NCBI RefSeq assembly: GCF_002305895.1
Contig: NZ_CP022203.1
Location: forward strand, 6,668,001-6,732,000
Reading direction: 5' to 3'
Source: Corallococcus macrosporus DSM 14697
GTDB lineage: Bacteria; Myxococcota; Myxococcia; Myxococcales; Myxococcaceae
Length of the DNA stretch: 64,000 nt
In this document: piece after piece, positions 7,501-16,520 of the stretch
Position numbering within the stretch: the first letter of the stretch is position 1
Layout of the letters: each line of letters begins with the position of its first letter
Translations under genes and position numbers: made by a program
The notes under the pieces: generated by a model
What the model was told of the DNA's origin: nothing
Databases searched by the model: none
What the model saw: only the letters and a program-made list of their open reading frames with translations

Positions 7501-8196
7501 ATGGATGCGTTCAAGGTTCTGGTGGTCGACGATGAGCAGCCCATCGCACGCGCGCTGCAGCGTTTGTTGAAGCGAGAGGGATTCGAGGTCCAGATTGCCT
7601 TCAGCGGCAACGAGGCGCTCGAGCGGCTGGAGGCGTTCAGCCCGGACATCGTCCTGACGGATTTCCGGATGCCAGGAATGACGGGCAGCGAGCTGCTCCA
7701 GCGCATCAAACGCAGCCATCCGCTGGCGCTGCGCCTCATCATCTCTGGCTATGCGGACTTCAAGTCCGTGGTGGCCTCGGTGAACGAGGGCGAAATCTGC
7801 CGCTTCATCAGCAAGCCCTGGGACGACGCGGAGCTGGTGACGTACCTCAAGGGGCTGCTGCGGCACCGCGAGTCGATGGCGTGCCTCTACGCCCCCTTCC
7901 GCGGCGCGCCCGACGGGGTGAACGCGGAGGTGGGCCTGTCCGCCGCGGCCATGGTGCTCAAGGTGCAGGTGGCCGACCCGTCCTTCCCGGCCGACCAGGC
8001 CGTCTCGCTCATCGAGCGCTTCGCGGGCGTGCTGGCCGATGACCGCCTCAAGTTGGTGGGCGGCCTGCTCGAACGCTACGGCGGGCGCCTGTCCTTCATG
8101 GCGGACGTCGGCGGGCCGCAGCGGCTCCGGCTGGAGGTGCCGGTGCCCACCCTGGAGTCCGTCAACGCCCTGCGCCCCGGCGCCAGCGACGCCTGA
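7501..8196 (+). CDS. Response regulator, receiver domain plus uncharacterised C-terminal domain
   Basis: Residues 1-122 form a receiver domain: acidic pair D10-D11, phospho-acceptor D54 (DIVLTDFRMPGM), and conserved lysine K105 in RFISKPWDD. The ISGYADFKSVVASVNEGE stretch is typical of receivers in RpfG/hydrogenase-type regulators. The remaining ~105 residues have no helix-turn-helix, GGDEF, EAL or HD-GYP signature; they look like a small alpha/beta domain (AAAMVLKVQVADPSFPADQAV, LLERYGGRLSFMADV). It is thus probably a protein-interaction output rather than a transcription factor. No kinase gene is adjacent. A 290-bp gap separates it from the divergent transporter. Confidence 0.9.
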   Translation: MDAFKVLVVDDEQPIARALQRLLKREGFEVQIAFSGNEALERLEAFSPDIVLTDFRMPGMTGSELLQRIKRSHPLALRLIISGYADFKSVVASVNEGEICRFISKPWDDAELVTYLKGLLRHRESMACLYAPFRGAPDGVNAEVGLSAAAMVLKVQVADPSFPADQAVSLIERFAGVLADDRLKLVGGLLERYGGRLSFMADVGGPQRLRLEVPVPTLESVNALRPGASDA

Positions 8197-8320
8197 GCGT
8201 CGGGCACAGCCCCGCCCACACGCCCTCACCTCCGCCAGGGGTGACGCGTCGCGGCGACAGAATTCACCGAAGGGAAATAACCGGGTCCGTTCTCACCGGT
8301 GCTCAGGGGGAAGCCCACCG

Positions 8321-8914
8321 GTGGAACGACACGAGACAAGGACAACAGACGGCTCCGCCACGCCGGGTGACGGTCACCGCCGTCAGTTCGAGGCGTTCGC
8401 GCGCGCGCGGCGCCCGGCATTGCTCCGCATCGCCCGGCGCTTGTGTTCGGGTGGGGGCATCGACCCGGAGGACCTGGTCCAGGAGACGCTGGAGCGCGCC
8501 TACCGCCACTTCGACAAGCTGATGGCGGAGAACGCGGGCGCGGTGAGCGTCTGGCTGAGCACCACGATGAGCAACCGCTTCCTGGACCACTGCCGGCGGC
8601 GGCGCACCGAGGTGATGGGCGCGCCCATGCTGCGGCTGGTGCAGGACCTGGACGCGGAGGGCGAGGCGGCCCCCCAGGAGCAGTGGGAGCGCGTGTCCCG
8701 CGACGAATTCCAGAAGGCCATCGACCAGTTGCGGCCCCCGCACCTGCGCGACGCCTACCGCCTCCACGTGGCGGGGCTGCGGTACCGGGCCATTGCCCAG
8801 CAGCTCCGTTCGACAGAGGGGACGGTGGGCCGGTGGCTCACGGAGGCCCGGCAGGCGCTGCGCGTGCTGCTGGGAGGCAGTGACGCCTCGCACGAAGGCA
8901 TGGCCGAATCATGA
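8321..8914 (+). CDS. ECF-type RNA polymerase sigma factor
   Basis: The 197-residue product has sigma region 2 (PALLRIARRLC, then DPEDLVQETLERAYRHFDKL, then SVWLSTTMSNRFLDHCRRRR) and region 4 (RDAYRLHVAGLRYRAIAQQL followed by the recognition helix TEGTVGRWLTEARQALR) with no region 1 or 3, as in extracytoplasmic-function sigma factors. The GTG at 8321 is preceded by GGGGGAA about 8 bases upstream; the frame stays open further upstream but lacks family similarity there. The stop overlaps the start of the anti-sigma/CHAT gene (ATGA at 8911-8914), so the two are translationally coupled. That arrangement normally means the second product restrains the first. Confidence 0.9.
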   Translation: MERHETRTTDGSATPGDGHRRQFEAFARARRPALLRIARRLCSGGGIDPEDLVQETLERAYRHFDKLMAENAGAVSVWLSTTMSNRFLDHCRRRRTEVMGAPMLRLVQDLDAEGEAAPQEQWERVSRDEFQKAIDQLRPPHLRDAYRLHVAGLRYRAIAQQLRSTEGTVGRWLTEARQALRVLLGGSDASHEGMAES

Positions 8915-11838
8915 GCAGCGTCTGCGACAACCTGGAGCGCTTCGTCGACGGGGAGCTGCTCCCCGTGGACGCGGAGAACTTCCGTCACCACCTGGCCCGC
9001 TGCGGCGCGTGTGAGTCGCGGATGAAGGAGCTGCTCGCGCTGGAGCTGCTCGCCGACGACGCGTTGAACGGCCCCGCGCCCGAGCGCGCGGGCGCGCGGC
9101 CCTCCTGGCGGAGCAGGTCCTGGCTGATGGTGGTGCCGCTCGCGCTCGCCGCGGGGCTGGCCGCGCTGGTGCTGGTGCCCCGCTCGGAGCCCGCGAGCGC
9201 CGCGCCCGAGCTCTGGCTGGCGGACGCGGCCACCCGGCCCCTGGAGCTCCGCCTCACCCATCCCGGCGCGGACGGGTACCGCCCCTACCAGGTGATGCGC
9301 AGCGGCGCGGGCCCCAAGCCCCAGGCCCTGGCGCTGCGCGAGCTGGCCCGGCTGGAAGAGGCGGCGGACCACCGGGGCATCGCCTCGGCCTTCCTGCTGC
9401 GCGGGGACCTGGCGCAGGCCTCCGCCTTCCTCGACAAGCTGCCGCCCTCCCCGGACCTGGACACGGACCGCGCGGCCCTGGCGCTTCAGCAAGACGAGCC
9501 GGAGAAGGCGCTCGTCCTGCTGGAGCGCGCGCTGAAGGCGCGGCCCCGTCATGCCCAGGCGCTCTGGAACCAGGCGCTGGCGCTCCAGCGGCTCGGCCTG
9601 TCGCTGCGCGCCGCGGAGTCCTTCGAGCAGGTGGCGAAGCTCGGCGAGCGCGGCTGGAGCGACGAGGCGGCGCGGCGCGCCCAGGCGCTGCGGAGCGCGG
9701 CGGAGCAGGAGCGCCAGGACTGGAAGGGCATGCGTCAGGACTGCCAGCGCATGGTGGACGGCGGCGCGCCGCTCACCTCCGCTCAGGCGGAGGCGCTGCC
9801 GGGCATGGCGCGCGTGTGCCTCTACAACGCCCTGCGCGCGGCGGCCTCGCCCGAGCGCGTGGAGTCCCTGCGCCCCCTGGCGGCGACGTTGGACCGGCGG
9901 GAGGACGGCACGCACCTGGAGGACGCCGTGCGCCGCACCGCCCGGCGGGACTTCTCCGCGCGCACGCCGCTGGCCCAGGAGTACGCGCGCCTCACCCGGG
10001 GCGAGGTGAGGGGCCCCGCGTTGGAGTCCCTTCTCACGCGGCTGCGCGAGGCCCGGCAGGAGGACCTGCTGCTGGGCGCGCTCGCGTACGCGGACCCGCG
10101 CCAGTTCCCGGACGAGTACCGGGCGCTCGCGCTGGAGACGAGGGACCCGTGGTTCGCGCTGCTGGCCGAGGAGCGGCAGGCGCGGGCGGAGGCCCGGGCG
10201 GACGCGCCGCAGCGCGCGCGGGAGCGGCTCCAGGCCGCGGTGAAGGCGTGCGCGGCCTCCGGGAAGCAGGCGTACCGCTGCATGCTGATGCAGCGGGAGC
10301 TGGGCCTGGTGATGGCGCGGCTCCACCGGCCCGTGGATGCGCGCGCCAGCTTCCTCGCCGCGCTGCGGGCCGCCCGGGACAGCCGGGAGTGGGGCTCGGT
10401 GCGCAACCTGCTCCAGGACCTGGGACAGGTGGCGCGGACGCAGGGCGACCTGGTGCTGGCCCGGGCGTACGTGGAGGAGCTGCTGCTCCAGACGCCCGAG
10501 GGCTGCGCGGACTCCGAGGTGGCCCTCACCAGCCTGGCGCTCGCACACCACCGGGCGTTGGACTTCGCGGGCGCCCGGGAGTTCCTCGACCGGGCCGTCC
10601 AGTGCAGCCAGAAGCCCTCCATGGCGCGGCTGGCGCTGCTCGCCGACCTGGCCCGCACGCCCTTCCGCAAGCCGGGAGACGCGCGGTTGCTGGAGCAGGG
10701 CCTGGGCGCGCTGCGCGCTTCGGGCACCCAGGACGGGGGAGACCTCGCCCTGCTGCGCCACATCGAGGGGCGCTTCTACCTGGAGCAGGACGCGGGCCGG
10801 GGGCAGACGCTGCTGCGTCAGGCGCTGGCGGACGCCTCCAAGCTGCCAGCGGCGAACGTGAGCGCGCGCAAGGCCCGCGTCTACAGCTACACCTCGCTCA
10901 TCCTCGACGCGGGCCGGACGGGCGCGTTGGAGCAGGGGCTGGACCTCTTCGCCGAGGAGCACGCCATGCCCTCGCCGGAGCGCTGCGTGCTGGGCGTCAC
11001 GGTGGACGACGAGCGGACCCTCGTCGTGGCCCGGGACGCGGACGGGCGCCTGCTGGGCCACCACGACACGGGCCGGGAGGCGCCACTGGAAGGTGCCGAA
11101 GGGCTGGTGCCTGAAGCGGTGGTGAAGGCCCTGCGCGCCTGCCCCAGCGTGGACGTGCTCGCGCGGCCACCGGTGCAGGGGCGCGCGGGGCTGCTGCCCT
11201 CCGACATCGCGTGGTCCTACCGGGTGGGCGGCCTGACCGCGGCCCCGCGCGCCAACGCGAAGGCGCGCCGGCTCATCGTGACGGACGTGCTGGCCCCTGA
11301 GTCGCTGCACCTGCCCGTGCTGCGCGCGTGGAACCCGGCCCATGACACGGGCGAAGGGCTCACCCTGCTCCGCGGCGCCGAGGCCACGCCGCCGCGCGTC
11401 CTCACGGCCATGCGGGACGCCACCGAGGTGCAGGTCCACGCGCACGGCATCATCGACCCGACGGTGGCGGACGCCTCCGTCCTCGTGCTCTCACCGGAGG
11501 CCCAGGGCGGCCGCTTCGCGCTCACCACCGGGGACTTGAAGGGGCAGCGGCTGCGGGGCCGGCCCGTGGTGCTGCTGGCGGCCTGCTACGCGGGCCACAC
11601 CAGCGCGTACCTGCATGAGAACTTCGGCCTGCCCCTGGCCTTCATCGAAGCCGGCGCGCGGGCCGTCCTGGCCGCCACGCAGGAGATTCCCGACGACGAG
11701 GCCCATGCCTTCTTCGAGCCCGTCCTGGCCCGGATTCGCGAAGGCGTCCCCGCGGCCGTGGCCTTGCGCGACGAGCGTCAGGCCTGGCTGCGCCGCAGCG
11801 CCAGCACCTGGGTCCAACAGGTGCTGCTCTTCGAGTAG
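8911..11838 (+). CDS. Anti-sigma zinc finger - membrane helix - TPR - CHAT protease-like fusion
   Basis: This 975-residue protein joins a regulator to a peptidase-like domain. Residues 1-45 are an anti-sigma zinc finger (zf-HC2) with H27-x3-C31-x2-C34. A single membrane helix follows (~71-89, WLMVVPLALAAGLAALVLV). Residues ~110-680 are helical and TPR-like (HAQALWNQALALQRLGLSLR, DARASFLAALRAARDSRE). The C terminus (~690-975) is a CHAT caspase-like domain with catalytic His ~845 in VHAHGI and catalytic Cys ~892 in LLAACYAGHTS. With the finger in the cytoplasm, one helix would place TPR and CHAT in the periplasm. The ATG overlaps the ECF gene stop. By analogy with zf-HC2 anti-sigmas it should hold the ECF factor; whether CHAT cleaves itself or a partner to release it is inference. 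Confidence 0.88.
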   Translation: MSSVCDNLERFVDGELLPVDAENFRHHLARCGACESRMKELLALELLADDALNGPAPERAGARPSWRSRSWLMVVPLALAAGLAALVLVPRSEPASAAPELWLADAATRPLELRLTHPGADGYRPYQVMRSGAGPKPQALALRELARLEEAADHRGIASAFLLRGDLAQASAFLDKLPPSPDLDTDRAALALQQDEPEKALVLLERALKARPRHAQALWNQALALQRLGLSLRAAESFEQVAKLGERGWSDEAARRAQALRSAAEQERQDWKGMRQDCQRMVDGGAPLTSAQAEALPGMARVCLYNALRAAASPERVESLRPLAATLDRREDGTHLEDAVRRTARRDFSARTPLAQEYARLTRGEVRGPALESLLTRLREARQEDLLLGALAYADPRQFPDEYRALALETRDPWFALLAEERQARAEARADAPQRARERLQAAVKACAASGKQAYRCMLMQRELGLVMARLHRPVDARASFLAALRAARDSREWGSVRNLLQDLGQVARTQGDLVLARAYVEELLLQTPEGCADSEVALTSLALAHHRALDFAGAREFLDRAVQCSQKPSMARLALLADLARTPFRKPGDARLLEQGLGALRASGTQDGGDLALLRHIEGRFYLEQDAGRGQTLLRQALADASKLPAANVSARKARVYSYTSLILDAGRTGALEQGLDLFAEEHAMPSPERCVLGVTVDDERTLVVARDADGRLLGHHDTGREAPLEGAEGLVPEAVVKALRACPSVDVLARPPVQGRAGLLPSDIAWSYRVGGLTAAPRANAKARRLIVTDVLAPESLHLPVLRAWNPAHDTGEGLTLLRGAEATPPRVLTAMRDATEVQVHAHGIIDPTVADASVLVLSPEAQGGRFALTTGDLKGQRLRGRPVVLLAACYAGHTSAYLHENFGLPLAFIEAGARAVLAATQEIPDDEAHAFFEPVLARIREGVPAAVALRDERQAWLRRSASTWVQQVLLFE

Positions 11839-11871
11839 TCCTCCACTCCACCATCGAGCGAGCGCATCCCC

Positions 11872-12414
11872 ATGAAGAAGCACCTTCTCCCCCTCTCGTG
11901 CCTGTTCCTGCTCTCCGCCTGCCGGCACACGGGCAACACGCCGGACGGGAACCCCTCGGAGGACCTCCCCGCGGGCACCTACGTCCAAATCACCTTGCAA
12001 GATGTCCGCAATCCCCTGAAGCGCTCCACCTACGTGGTGGACCCACGCACGGACACCGTGGTGGAGCGGCGGGATGGCCGGCGCGCCGTGGCGGCCCCCA
12101 GTCCTCGGGCGCCCGGCGCCGAGCCCTCCGACGAGACCACCCAGGCGGCCTCCGCCGTCTCGCAAACCCACAGCGCCTCTCTGACCCTGTCCGTCCTCTG
12201 CCGGGTCACCGAGACGGCAGAGGACGGCTGCATCGACCTGGCCATCGACCCCAAGCATGAGACGTCCGGCGACCCGAACCCCATCAAGGAGGAGCGGCTT
12301 CGCATCGCCATCACGGAGCGCTACGTGAAGCAGCTCGCCGCGAACATGCTGCGGACCGCGCACCGCGCGGGCGTCCAGGTGCACGTGCCCGCGGTCCGGG
12401 CTCCGGCGAAGTAG
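11872..12414 (+). CDS. Lipoprotein of unknown function in the ECF/CHAT operon
   Basis: The product has 180 residues with a lipoprotein signal (MKKHLLPLSCLFLLSAC; lipobox LSAC, lipidated Cys 17). The mature part has no recognised family: a beta-rich stretch (GTYVQITLQDVRNPLKRSTYVV), a linker rich in Ala, Pro and Ser, and a C-terminal amphipathic helix (EERLRIAITERYVKQLAANML). Two more cysteines (in VLCRVTETAEDGC) could form a disulfide. It starts 33 bp after the CHAT gene on the same strand, so it is probably cotranscribed and could be the envelope partner or ligand sensed by the periplasmic TPR-CHAT region. That role is inference. Confidence 0.75.
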   Translation: MKKHLLPLSCLFLLSACRHTGNTPDGNPSEDLPAGTYVQITLQDVRNPLKRSTYVVDPRTDTVVERRDGRRAVAAPSPRAPGAEPSDETTQAASAVSQTHSASLTLSVLCRVTETAEDGCIDLAIDPKHETSGDPNPIKEERLRIAITERYVKQLAANMLRTAHRAGVQVHVPAVRAPAK

Positions 12415-12437
12415 CGGCCCGCGCGGCGCTACTTCGC
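12406..12437. terminator. Perfect 11-bp inverted repeat spanning two convergent stop codons
   Basis: The arms GCGAAGTAGCG (12406-12416) and CGCTACTTCGC (12427-12437) are exact reverse complements around a 10-base GC loop. The lipoprotein gene and the helicase gene converge here, and each reading frame ends inside the repeat with the same Ala-Lys-stop codons. It looks like a shared bidirectional terminator hairpin; there is no T tract, so its efficiency is an inference. Confidence 0.6.
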
Positions 12438-15400
12438 ACCCGCCCCCGGGGCGCCCTCCGGGGACGGTGCCGCGGGGGCGAGCCCGCCCAGCGTCTCCAC
12501 GTAGGTGGCGGCCACGCGGAGGAAGCGCGCGCCGCGTACGCCGGTGAGGTACTGCCGCTTCATCGCGCGCGTCGCGCCCACGTAGAACATGGCGCGGCGG
12601 ATGCGCTCGTTCTCCCGGGCCGAGCGCTCCCGGGCGCCGGCCATCCACTGCTCCGCGGTGTCCAGCGCGTCCAGGCCCGCGAAGAAGACGATGGGGCACT
12701 CGTGCCCCTTGCAGGAGAACACCGTGGTGGCGCGCACGTGGTCCACGCCGCTGACGCGGAAGTCCGTCACGTTGCGCCCGCCCTTGCCGCCGTAGGCCTC
12801 CGCCGGCACGCCCGCGCGCTTGAGCGCCTCCGTGAACTGGGAGGGCATGACGGGGGCCACCACGAGGATGTCGCCGGGGTGGACGCCCTCCTCGCGGATG
12901 AGGCGGGCAATCTCGCGGGCCACCTGCCGCGCCTCGCTGGCGCTCGAGGCGAAGCCGCGCACCTGGGGCAGCACGCCGCCGCGCTCGGTGGACTGGACGC
13001 GGAAGAGGCCCTCCAGCGTCTCCTCCGGGAGCCAGACGAGCCCCTCGCGCGCCAGCTCCCCCACCTTCATGTATTCGCGCATGCCGGGCTCGGCCGCGCC
13101 GTGCTGGCGCAGCGGGTCCAGCACCACGTTGAAGGCCACGTCGAGGATGTCCCGGGTGGCGCGGAACGTCTCCTTGAGCACGCGGGTGCGGCCGCGGAAC
13201 GACAGCCCTTCGGGGAGCTGCTCCTTCAGCGCGTCGATGGGCACCTGGCCATAGACGTTCTGCGAGTCGTCCATGAAGAGCTGGAAGCAGCGCACCTCGC
13301 GCCCGTCCGGCAGCAGGTCCGGGCGCACCAGCGCGTGGAGCATGGCCAGCGCCTTGGCGTCCATGTCCTGGGCCTCGTCCACGAAGACGCCGTCGAAGGA
13401 GCCGGGGGCATGGCGGCGCAGCGCGCCCACGTGCCGCACCGTCACCCGTGCGCGCAGCTCGCGCACCCGCAGACGGCCCGCGCGCTGGGCCAGCGCCTCC
13501 ACCAACAGCTTGTCCACCAGCGGCGCCAGGGCCCGGTTGTAGAAGGACACCAGCACCTGCGCCTCGGCGTTCTCCAGCAGGTAGCGCGCCACCCAGTGCG
13601 CCAGCACGTACGTCTTGCCGCTGCCGGCCACGCCGCGCACCAGGTGGTGCCCGTCATCGAAGCGGCGCTCGAAGAGGGACACCTGCTCGTGCGTGAAGAG
13701 GGGCTGCCCGGGCCGCGCGCCCTGGATTTCCGCGCCCAGGTCCAGCGGCACCGGAGGAGGGGGTGGCGGCGGCGCGCGCTGCGGGACGGGCAGCGGCTCC
13801 AGGCGCAGGGGCTCGCCGGGGTGCACGCGCAGCCGCGGCAAGAGCGACAGGAAGCGCTGCGGAATCGTGGCGGCGCGCGCCTCGTCACGCGAGGCCAGCA
13901 CCAGCAGGTAGTCCTTCGCGCGGCTGGCGGCCACGTTGAGCATGGGCACCAGCGTGTGGGGCGGAAACGGCCTGCCGCCAGCGACGGTGTCCACCAGCAC
14001 CACGTCGTACTGGGTGCCCTGCTGGCGGTGGATGGTGGACGCGCTGAAGACGTCCCCGCGCAGGCCCGCGGCGTTGCCCAGCCGGCGCAGCAGGGCGGCC
14101 TGGGCGCGGTAGGGCGTGACGCACAGGACGCTGAGGCCCGAGCGCACCGCCTCGCGCGCCAGGGACACGGCGAGGTTGGCGGACAGCTCGCGCTGGTAGC
14201 CGGAGCCCGTCTCGCCGCGTCCATGGGTGAGGCGCTTCGAGTCGCGCGTGAGGCCGTCCAGCACCACCCAGCCCGCGCGCACGGACGGGAAGGCAGCCAC
14301 CGGGGCGGGCCGCTCCGCGCGCTGCTTGACGACGTCGCCGTCCTCCAGCGCTCCGCCGTAGCAGAAGTGGCTCACCACCTTCGCGATGTCCGGGTGCATG
14401 CGGTGCTGGGTGCGCAGCAGCAGCACGTCCGCGCGCGCCGCGTCCTTCACCGCGTCCTCCAGGTGGGACAGGCCGCTGCCGCGCAGCCACTTCTGCGTGC
14501 CCTTGCCCGCGCCCTCCGCGGCACGGCTCACCGGGCCAATCTGCTTCGGGTCTCCCGCCAGCGTCACCCGCTCCGCCAGCGGCCCCATCAACGCGGTGGC
14601 CGCGCGCGTCACCATGCCGGCCTCGTCCACCACCAGCCGCGCGAAGTGCTGCTTCCCCTCCAGCTCCGACACCAGGCGCAGCGCGCGGTGCACGGTGACC
14701 ACCACCAGCGGGCAGTCCCCCTTCTCCACCTCCTTGAGCGTGGGGTCCTTCACCTTGCCGCGCAGGCCGCGCAGCTCCGCCTGGAGCCTGGCCAGCTCAT
14801 GGGCGGGGCCGCCTCGCACGCGCTGGAGCATGAGGTCCCGCTCCCGCTCCTCGATGCTGGCGCGCAGCTTGCCGCCCTTGGTGTCCTCCAGCGTCACCGT
14901 GGGCAGCTTCGCCAGCGCCTCGCTCGCGCCGGTGCCGCCGCGGAAGATGCTGCGCGCCAGGGGCCGCAGCGGGATGGGCTCGCGCTCCAGCAGCGCGCTG
15001 ACGCGGAGGACCAGCTCGTCCGCGGCGCGGTTGGTGGGCGCCACCGCGAGGATGCGCTCGCCAGGGTAGGCGCGCAGGGCCCGGGCGATGAGGTCCGCCA
15101 CGGCCGTCGTCTTGCCCGTGCCGGGCGGCCCCCAGATGCAGCCCCAGGGCTGGCGCCAGAGCCGGTCGGCCGGAATCAGGGCCTCGTCTTGAGGCGTCAG
15201 CGTGGCCGGCGGGGCCTCGCCGCAGGCGCGTCGCAGGGACTCGGTGAGCGCGTCCTGCCGGTCCTCGTAGGCGGAGGCCGCCGCGCAGAGGGCCTCCGCG
15301 AAGTCATAGGGCCGGTAGCACCAGCGGTCCGCGGACAGCGCGCGCCGGTCCACGTCATCCCCGTGGCTGGGCGCGGCGAACACGCGACCCGACTCGAAGT

Positions 15401-16187
15401 CCAGGTGGACGACGTCACCGCCGAAGACGCACTCCTCTCCCAGGAACCCCAGCACCGAGCCGCCGGACCAGTCCGGGTCCGCCGCCGGGCGCGGGATGAG
15501 GGAGAGGACGCTCGCCCCCTGGAGGCTGACTTCTCGCACGTCCTGGAGGAGCTGCGCGCGGTACTGGCTGCGCTCGGACAGCAGCGCCTCCCGCAGGTCC
15601 TCCGGCAGGTACGCGGGCGGCGACCAGAGCTCGCGGCGCTTCCCGGTGGCCACCGCGGCGCGCATCGCCTCGCGCTCGGCGGGGCTGACGTCCTCCGGCG
15701 CCGCGATGTCACGCGAGGGCACGTCCTCCGTGTCTCCGCGCCCCCGCGCCATCCGCGACACGACCAGCATGGGGTTTGGCGCGCGCGCCACCTCCGCCCG
15801 CGCCTCGGTGGGCTCGGGCGCCCGGGGCGGCTCGACGGGCATCGAGCCCACGGTGCGACGCAGCGCCAGCGCCTCTTCCTGGAGCGGCACGGCAGGCGCA
15901 GCGCCCTCGGTGCGACGCAGCCCTGCCGCCTCTTCCGCGGGTGGCTTGACAGGCGCCGTACCCTCGGTGCTCCGTGACGCGACCACCTCTTCCCAATGCG
16001 GCTCCTGCCCCTGGAGCGTGTTGCGCCAGCGCGGCACGGAGCCACTTCGCCGGGGCGGCGTGGCTTCGGGCGGCGGCGCGTCGTCGTACTCGACGTGCAG
16101 CTCGCGGGTGGGCGCCGGCGCGCGCGAGCCCGCATCCCCGGGCTCCACCGCTTCGCCCGTACCTTCCGCCTCCGGCCACCGCATCAT
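12429..16187 (-). CDS. Tandem SF1 helicase: UPF1/DNA2-like module fused to UvrD-like module
   Basis: About 1,252 residues hold two complete P-loop helicase cores. The first (~330-800) has Walker A GPPGTGKTT, DEAG motif II in ARLVVDEAGMVT, LAGDPKQIGPV motif III and a Q-H-R-M motif (LLRTQHRMHPDI), all typical of UPF1/DNA2-like helicases. The second (~830-1235) has Walker A GVAGSGKTY, DEAQD motif II, a TFRATRDI motif IV-like segment, FSCKGHECPIVF and VGATRAMKRQY, as in UvrD/AAA_19 proteins. A Pro-rich linker joins them. The N-terminal ~190 residues are low complexity with a triple 19-residue repeat. ATG 16187 (or 16184) was chosen because the open frame before it is unlike coding sequence. Probably acts on nucleic acids in the cytoplasm; pathway unknown. 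Confidence 0.85.
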   Translation of the reverse strand: MMRWPEAEGTGEAVEPGDAGSRAPAPTRELHVEYDDAPPPEATPPRRSGSVPRWRNTLQGQEPHWEEVVASRSTEGTAPVKPPAEEAAGLRRTEGAAPAVPLQEEALALRRTVGSMPVEPPRAPEPTEARAEVARAPNPMLVVSRMARGRGDTEDVPSRDIAAPEDVSPAEREAMRAAVATGKRRELWSPPAYLPEDLREALLSERSQYRAQLLQDVREVSLQGASVLSLIPRPAADPDWSGGSVLGFLGEECVFGGDVVHLDFESGRVFAAPSHGDDVDRRALSADRWCYRPYDFAEALCAAASAYEDRQDALTESLRRACGEAPPATLTPQDEALIPADRLWRQPWGCIWGPPGTGKTTAVADLIARALRAYPGERILAVAPTNRAADELVLRVSALLEREPIPLRPLARSIFRGGTGASEALAKLPTVTLEDTKGGKLRASIEERERDLMLQRVRGGPAHELARLQAELRGLRGKVKDPTLKEVEKGDCPLVVVTVHRALRLVSELEGKQHFARLVVDEAGMVTRAATALMGPLAERVTLAGDPKQIGPVSRAAEGAGKGTQKWLRGSGLSHLEDAVKDAARADVLLLRTQHRMHPDIAKVVSHFCYGGALEDGDVVKQRAERPAPVAAFPSVRAGWVVLDGLTRDSKRLTHGRGETGSGYQRELSANLAVSLAREAVRSGLSVLCVTPYRAQAALLRRLGNAAGLRGDVFSASTIHRQQGTQYDVVLVDTVAGGRPFPPHTLVPMLNVAASRAKDYLLVLASRDEARAATIPQRFLSLLPRLRVHPGEPLRLEPLPVPQRAPPPPPPPVPLDLGAEIQGARPGQPLFTHEQVSLFERRFDDGHHLVRGVAGSGKTYVLAHWVARYLLENAEAQVLVSFYNRALAPLVDKLLVEALAQRAGRLRVRELRARVTVRHVGALRRHAPGSFDGVFVDEAQDMDAKALAMLHALVRPDLLPDGREVRCFQLFMDDSQNVYGQVPIDALKEQLPEGLSFRGRTRVLKETFRATRDILDVAFNVVLDPLRQHGAAEPGMREYMKVGELAREGLVWLPEETLEGLFRVQSTERGGVLPQVRGFASSASEARQVAREIARLIREEGVHPGDILVVAPVMPSQFTEALKRAGVPAEAYGGKGGRNVTDFRVSGVDHVRATTVFSCKGHECPIVFFAGLDALDTAEQWMAGARERSARENERIRRAMFYVGATRAMKRQYLTGVRGARFLRVAATYVETLGGLAPAAPSPEGAPGAGAK
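15822..15977 (-). repeat. Three tandem 57-bp coding repeats in the helicase N terminus
   Basis: Within the helicase gene the encoded segments STEGTAPVKPPAEEAAG, RTEGAAPAVPLQEEALA and RTVGSMPVEPP follow at an exact 19-residue spacing. Each unit has a basic R-S/R-T head, a Pro-Val-Pro centre and an acidic Glu-Glu pair except the last, which has decayed. The repeat lies in a disordered-looking region before the first helicase core and may be a flexible tether or a docking array. Confidence 0.6.
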
Positions 16188-16520
16188 CGGACGCGCGGCC
16201 CCCGCTCCTCGCCACGCACCGGCCCGGGGCCACCGGCGCCAGGCGGGGCCGTCCTGTCTCGCGGGGCTGGAGGATGTGCCGCGGCTGCCATGGCGAACGC
16301 TCGAAAAACCCACACTTCATGACCTGCCCACCCGAACAGGTCGCCACATGTAAGAGGGCGGCCAAGGTAGGGGAGGCTTGGATCGACGTCAATGCGCCAC
16401 ACCCAGGGTGCATGCGTGGTGGGTAGGAAGGCAGGCCGCCCCGGTGTACACCCTCTCCAGCCGGGCTTGCTTCCGCGTCCTCCCGATGTTCTGGGTGGAA
16501 GCCCCCCGCCCCCCAACGAC
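16188..16520. promoter_or_regulatory. Divergent intergenic region with a perfect 6-bp hairpin
   Basis: This 333-bp gap separates the divergent helicase and radical SAM genes and must hold both promoters. The clearest structure is GACCTG (16321-16326) and CAGGTC (16337-16342) around a 10-base spacer, which could be an operator or a hairpin. I see no convincing sigma-70 or sigma-54 promoter and no small gene with a ribosome binding site. Confidence 0.4.

Follow-up and report, generated by a model that had tools for sequence, protein, structure and literature searches.

The locus occupies positions 8,321 to 12,414 of the window, by which we mean the whole stretch of 64,000 nucleotides that was analysed, and it includes three open reading frames on the forward strand. 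The first one (8321..8914, +) starts with GTG and encodes an ECF sigma factor of 197 aa with both the sigma2 and the sigma4 region (Pfam profiles Sigma70_r2 at 3e-14 and Sigma70_r4_2 at 4e-7). It shares an overlap of 4 bp with the second one (8911..11838, +), which encodes a transmembrane protein of 975 aa with zf-HC2, TM, TPR and CHAT regions, while the third one (11872..12414, +) encodes a lipoprotein of 180 aa. An earlier note on this DNA had described a sigma gene overlapping a zf-HC2/one-helix/TPR-CHAT reading frame followed by a lipoprotein, and all three reading frames are as it claimed. The host is a Myxococcus, a predatory bacterium of soils.

A member of the family of the 975-aa fused protein was found in 27/27 Myxococcus genomes searched, with 4–13 family matches per Myxococcus genome, and the operon of the window was found in 26/27, its own genome counted. 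The sigma reading frame overlaps the fused gene in each of the 26 Myxococcus operons. Indeed, sigma factor, fused protein (61–90% identical) and lipoprotein occur together in 26/26 Myxococcus orthologues, so that the arrangement of the operon is not due to chance. Related loci are present in Myxococcus, Pyxidicoccus, Corallococcus, Citreicoccus, Archangium, Hyalangium and a metagenome bin labelled Kofleriaceae. Some loci (L046, L048, L049, L050, L055, L060 and L062) carry two complete units of sigma gene plus zf-HC2-TM-TPR-CHAT gene within a few kb, which suggests that the family has duplicated locally more than once.

The response regulator gene located upstream (7501–8196) was considered as a further member of the operon and rejected, as it adjoins the operon in the closest relatives only. 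On the other side, a gene on the minus strand (12429–16313) is convergent with the lipoprotein gene and encodes a protein of 1294 aa, in which one AAA_11/AAA_12 and one UvrD-like module of superfamily 1 helicases were recognised. A defence island at the window was also considered and found no support: the genes examined around the operon, namely those of an ABC transporter, a response regulator, a helicase and a radical SAM protein, include no CRISPR, CBASS or Cas gene, and the defence-helicase matches obtained with PADLOC are generic only.

Upstream of the sigma gene (8268..8293, +) lies an ECF-type promoter footprint, CGAAGGGA-N12-CGTTCT, whose CGAAGGGA and CGTT parts are nearly invariant across the 26 orthologous operons. 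Among the seven genomes scanned (this one and six relatives), the exact footprint occurs once per genome and always at this operon; the regulon scan found no exact copy beyond it in any of the seven. Its position in front of its own operon fits autoregulation by the sigma factor. A footprint with one mismatch occurs in the same genome at C1:8968990-8969015 (L086:1501-1526) and also in L100, about 30 bp before a gene for a secreted protein; it is kept in two relatives (G016 and G024) and could represent a second target.

The fused protein begins with a zf-HC2 anti-sigma finger (8923..9012, +), matched by Pfam at residues 5–34, where the score of 25.0 bits exceeds the cut-off of 22.2. The earlier note was right on the finger and on H27, C31 and C34 as ligands, and had overlooked the fourth one, C5. 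The full set is C5-H27-C31-C34, a conserved CHCC zinc site that aligns to the N-terminal domain of the anti-sigma factor DdvA (PDB 8rlz). The single strong hydrophobic segment of the protein, at residues 71–89 (9121..9177, +), is predicted as a transmembrane helix with the positive charge on its N side. It is followed by a putatively extracytoplasmic TPR superhelix at residues 142–683 (9334..10959, +), which is delimited by the secondary structure of the AlphaFold2 model and by Pfam TPR matches between the zf-HC2 and CHAT matches. The caspase-like CHAT domain extends over residues 690–975 (10978..11835, +) on the basis of Pfam and of VIA-align superposition on Csx29 and separase. The Pfam CHAT match, at residues 813–963, reaches 54.4 bits against a cut-off of 24 and covers the second half of the profile only (122–270 of 289).

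The CHAT domain carries the His/Cys dyad exactly at the positions noted earlier, His845 (11443..11445, +) and Cys892 (11584..11586, +), and the dyad is intact. Both residues are invariant in 135/135 distinct CHAT-bearing family members, stand-alone copies and identities down to 36% included, together with Gly846, Cys692, Cys744, Arg953, Arg956 and Trp967. A dyad unbroken over 135 sequences argues for the CHAT domain being an enzyme.

The TPR-CHAT part very probably sits outside the inner membrane, as the earlier note had predicted. Besides the hydrophobicity of the helix, two patterns of conservation support this topology. The positive-inside rule is respected: in 26/26 orthologues, K/R are more frequent before the helix than after it. 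Furthermore, the extracytoplasmic cysteines are co-conserved as the pairs 278/303, 447/457, 532/565 and 692/744, which are gained or lost jointly, with one break among 76 members, at 447/457. The pairing is taken from co-conservation, not from distances in the model, and the paired cysteines would fit disulfides and hence an oxidising compartment. In the protein of the window, Cys892 is the single unpaired extracytoplasmic cysteine. The cytoplasmic part of the fused members nearly always has the three zinc cysteines and no others. Elsewhere in the family, 18/76 members have an even cysteine count; therefore, a few extra unpaired cysteines exist.

The product of the third gene presents the lipobox LSAC17, followed by two invariant Cys, and its predicted model is weak (pLDDT 62.7). 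Its gene lies 26–36 bp downstream of the fused gene in 26/26 orthologous operons and is thus a conserved partner. The lipoprotein evolves much faster than the fused protein: it is 24–72% identical in alignment where the fused protein keeps 61–90%. Beyond this paralogue it accompanies some other branches of the family but not all, and many fused paralogues are without it.

The closest known relative of the fused protein is DdvA. Its whole 975-aa sequence matches end to end the 991-aa chain of PDB 8rot/8rw5 (phmmer against PDB, 5.4e-137). That chain is named "CHAT domain-containing protein", and its N terminus is the same as 8rlz ("Antisigma factor DdvA", 90 residues) at every aligned residue shown; coherently, the PDB titles of 8rot/8rw5 name the transmembrane anti-sigma factor DdvA (cryo-EM; dimeric, symmetry expansion). 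The fold agrees with the sequence. The AlphaFold2 model, built from 48 family members, has a mean pLDDT of 88.5; its top Foldseek match is 8rot (TM 0.81/0.87), followed by Csx29 and separase. VIA-align gave Z 47.1 over 863 residues for DdvA, Z 15–20 for the TPR-CHAT of Craspase (Csx29) and Z about 16–18 for separase. Sequence, fold and gene order considered together, the operon almost certainly encodes a DdvA-type pair of sigma and anti-sigma factors.

DdvA has been published as an ECF anti-sigma factor (reference 287 of PMC12288465), with structures both from cryo-EM and of the cytoplasmic domain, and PMC4374960 describes it as the cognate anti-sigma factor of DdvS, which is active upon DdvA inactivation. 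The architecture, which the earlier note had implied to be novel, had thus already been published for a protein related by both sequence and fold. The DdvS/DdvA pair is that of Myxococcus xanthus, treated by Bernal-Bernal et al. in Nucleic Acids Research in 2018 and also in Science Advances in 2024 (eadp1053). M. xanthus also has an orthologue of the operon of the window.

The operon of the window is not the orthologue of DdvS/DdvA. As a control, the C-terminal third of DdvA matched a relative (G007) at 100%; in this genome, DdvA is immediately preceded by an ECF gene, and Cas10, Cmr3 and Cmr6 follow about 10 kb downstream of it. DdvA is a regulator of a CBASS-CRISPR island. The same G007 also carries a 90% orthologue of the window protein and, because it holds both genes, the two operons are paralogues. 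Orthology was rejected also on the basis of the tree, in which the window protein belongs to a clade of 27 members (support 1.0) separate from the DdvA clade of 12 members.

The family occurs in more than one format. Full-length zinc-finger members with CHAT sit directly behind a sigma gene, including five apparently finger-less ones that carry zinc fingers by sequence. The lipoprotein is missing from many branches. CHAT members without a zinc finger are never directly behind a sigma gene, where this could be judged. There is also a lineage in which TPR-CHAT and a lipoprotein are retained with no sigma gene. The TM-TPR-CHAT paralogues of loci L041–L045 and L047 have neither zinc finger nor adjoining sigma gene, and are followed by a lipoprotein of about 210 aa whose sequence ends in VPR.

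A split lineage also exists, in which the order is a stand-alone TM-TPR-CHAT gene, the sigma gene and then a zf-HC2-TM-TPR anti-sigma gene without CHAT. Its TPR-CHAT protein is again membrane-bound, measures about 910 aa and is encoded about 2 kb from the sigma gene, and the CHAT-less anti-sigma measures 465–472 aa in five Myxococcus loci and 275–289 aa in Corallococcus/Citreicoccus. The lineage is monophyletic (support 1.0) and includes Myxococcus, Corallococcus and Citreicoccus. The genome of the window has such a pair itself (L080:6734-12944, corresponding to C1:1139733-1145943, with the two halves at C1:1139748 and 1144531), the split system occurs in M. xanthus too, and further split loci are L061, L064, L071, L073, L170, L172, L179, L183, L185, L188 and L167. 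In the two loci examined for it, a Cupin_8 gene on the opposite strand lies between the two halves. Tentatively, and with rather less than even confidence, we propose that myxobacteria could hold a diversified extracytoplasmic caspase-like family that serves ECF sigma factors. It would come in two formats, both old, one fused and one split, in the latter of which TPR-CHAT would cut the CHAT-less anti-sigma in trans.

The evidence as a whole is best explained by an autoregulated DdvS/DdvA-type operon in which a CHAT site-1 cut of the dimer partner, followed by an M50 cut, frees the sigma factor; we give this explanation an even chance. By analogy with DdvA and with anti-sigma factors in general, the sigma factor would be bound by the zinc domain (C5-H27-C31-C34) in the cytoplasm, and an envelope signal could be sensed by the TPR superhelix, perhaps via the lipoprotein as inhibitor or ligand. 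Upon signal, CHAT would make the site-1 cut in the other chain of the dimer, on the extracytoplasmic side close to the membrane. An RseP-type M50 protease would then cleave within the membrane, and the freed sigma factor would transcribe its own operon. The 2024 DdvA paper is said to propose in-trans autoproteolysis ahead of RseP. M50 proteases were found in the genome; since these are, to our knowledge, universal, their presence says little. For the single step on which this explanation turns, CHAT as the site-1 protease for the anti-sigma, we place the chances slightly below even.

The CHAT domain may be inactive, because the Pfam match is partial and the active site of DdvA is, as the 2024 paper is said to describe, incomplete and lacking helices. 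It could then be a non-catalytic fold for transmission or binding, the anti-sigma being cut by an unrelated site-1 protease and RseP, as RseA is; an anti-sigma without a CHAT of its own in the split lineage would agree with this reading. Pseudo-enzymes normally lose catalytic residues in some branches, however, and the invariance of His845 and Cys892 over the whole family, stand-alone copies too, makes a non-catalytic CHAT unlikely.

Alternatively, an active CHAT could cut another envelope protein, such as the lipoprotein, and a change in the TPR could loosen the sigma factor with the anti-sigma left uncut. The fast-evolving lipoprotein present in the operon in 26/26 orthologues would fit such a role, as would the lipoproteins downstream of sigma-less TPR-CHAT paralogues and the stand-alone TPR-CHAT copies without an adjoining sigma gene; the many fused paralogues without a downstream lipoprotein speak against it, and we hold this second reading to be quite improbable. 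Nothing was found in favour of a chance fusion or an annotation artefact whose parts do not function together in one chain. Its probability is negligible, and the comparative data refute it: the same uninterrupted frame recurs in 26 Myxococcus genomes and beyond, and a homologue was solved as one chain.

The preferred explanation, with CHAT as an active site-1 protease, can be compared with known systems, the nearest being DdvS/DdvA itself. The two share an ECF gene overlapping or abutting the gene of a zf-HC2-TM-TPR-CHAT anti-sigma, the CHCC zinc site, the whole-chain fold and a dyad in place. They differ in that the window protein belongs to another clade, at about 37% identity, has a downstream lipoprotein, and shows neither CBASS nor CRISPR genes among its examined neighbours. 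DdvA had already made known both the architecture and the proposed mechanism. What is new is a paralogous operon that includes a lipoprotein gene, the counts for the dyad and for the cysteine pairs, a conserved promoter footprint and a lineage with the system split; the DdvA papers may mention some of these points. The split lineage naturally puts restraint and protease in separate genes, each individually deletable, which opens a direct test of the question posed by DdvA: whether CHAT is active, and against which substrate.

In the ECF54 group, too, CHAT-domain proteins are encoded near ECF sigma genes, but PMC8999054 describes this group as without an anti-sigma factor. The parallel with the type III-E Craspase (Csx29, Csx30 and CASP-sigma; PMC10028731), drawn in the earlier note, holds: TPR-CHAT is linked to ECF sigma release there too, and Csx29 is, with separase, among the next fold matches after DdvA. 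Csx29, however, acts as part of a CRISPR complex guided by RNA, and the anti-sigma that it cleaves is a separate protein, whereas here the system is one membrane protein with its CHAT predicted outside. As in the RseA/DegS/RseP and RsiW-type proteolysis, a membrane anti-sigma should be cleaved first on the outer side and next within the membrane; the difference is that the anti-sigma of the window carries the candidate site-1 protease in its own chain, or has it encoded next door in the split lineage. If CHAT cuts the anti-sigma, this would add, beside DegS/RseP, a caspase/separase-type route in which sigma release is triggered on the outer side of the membrane by the anti-sigma itself.
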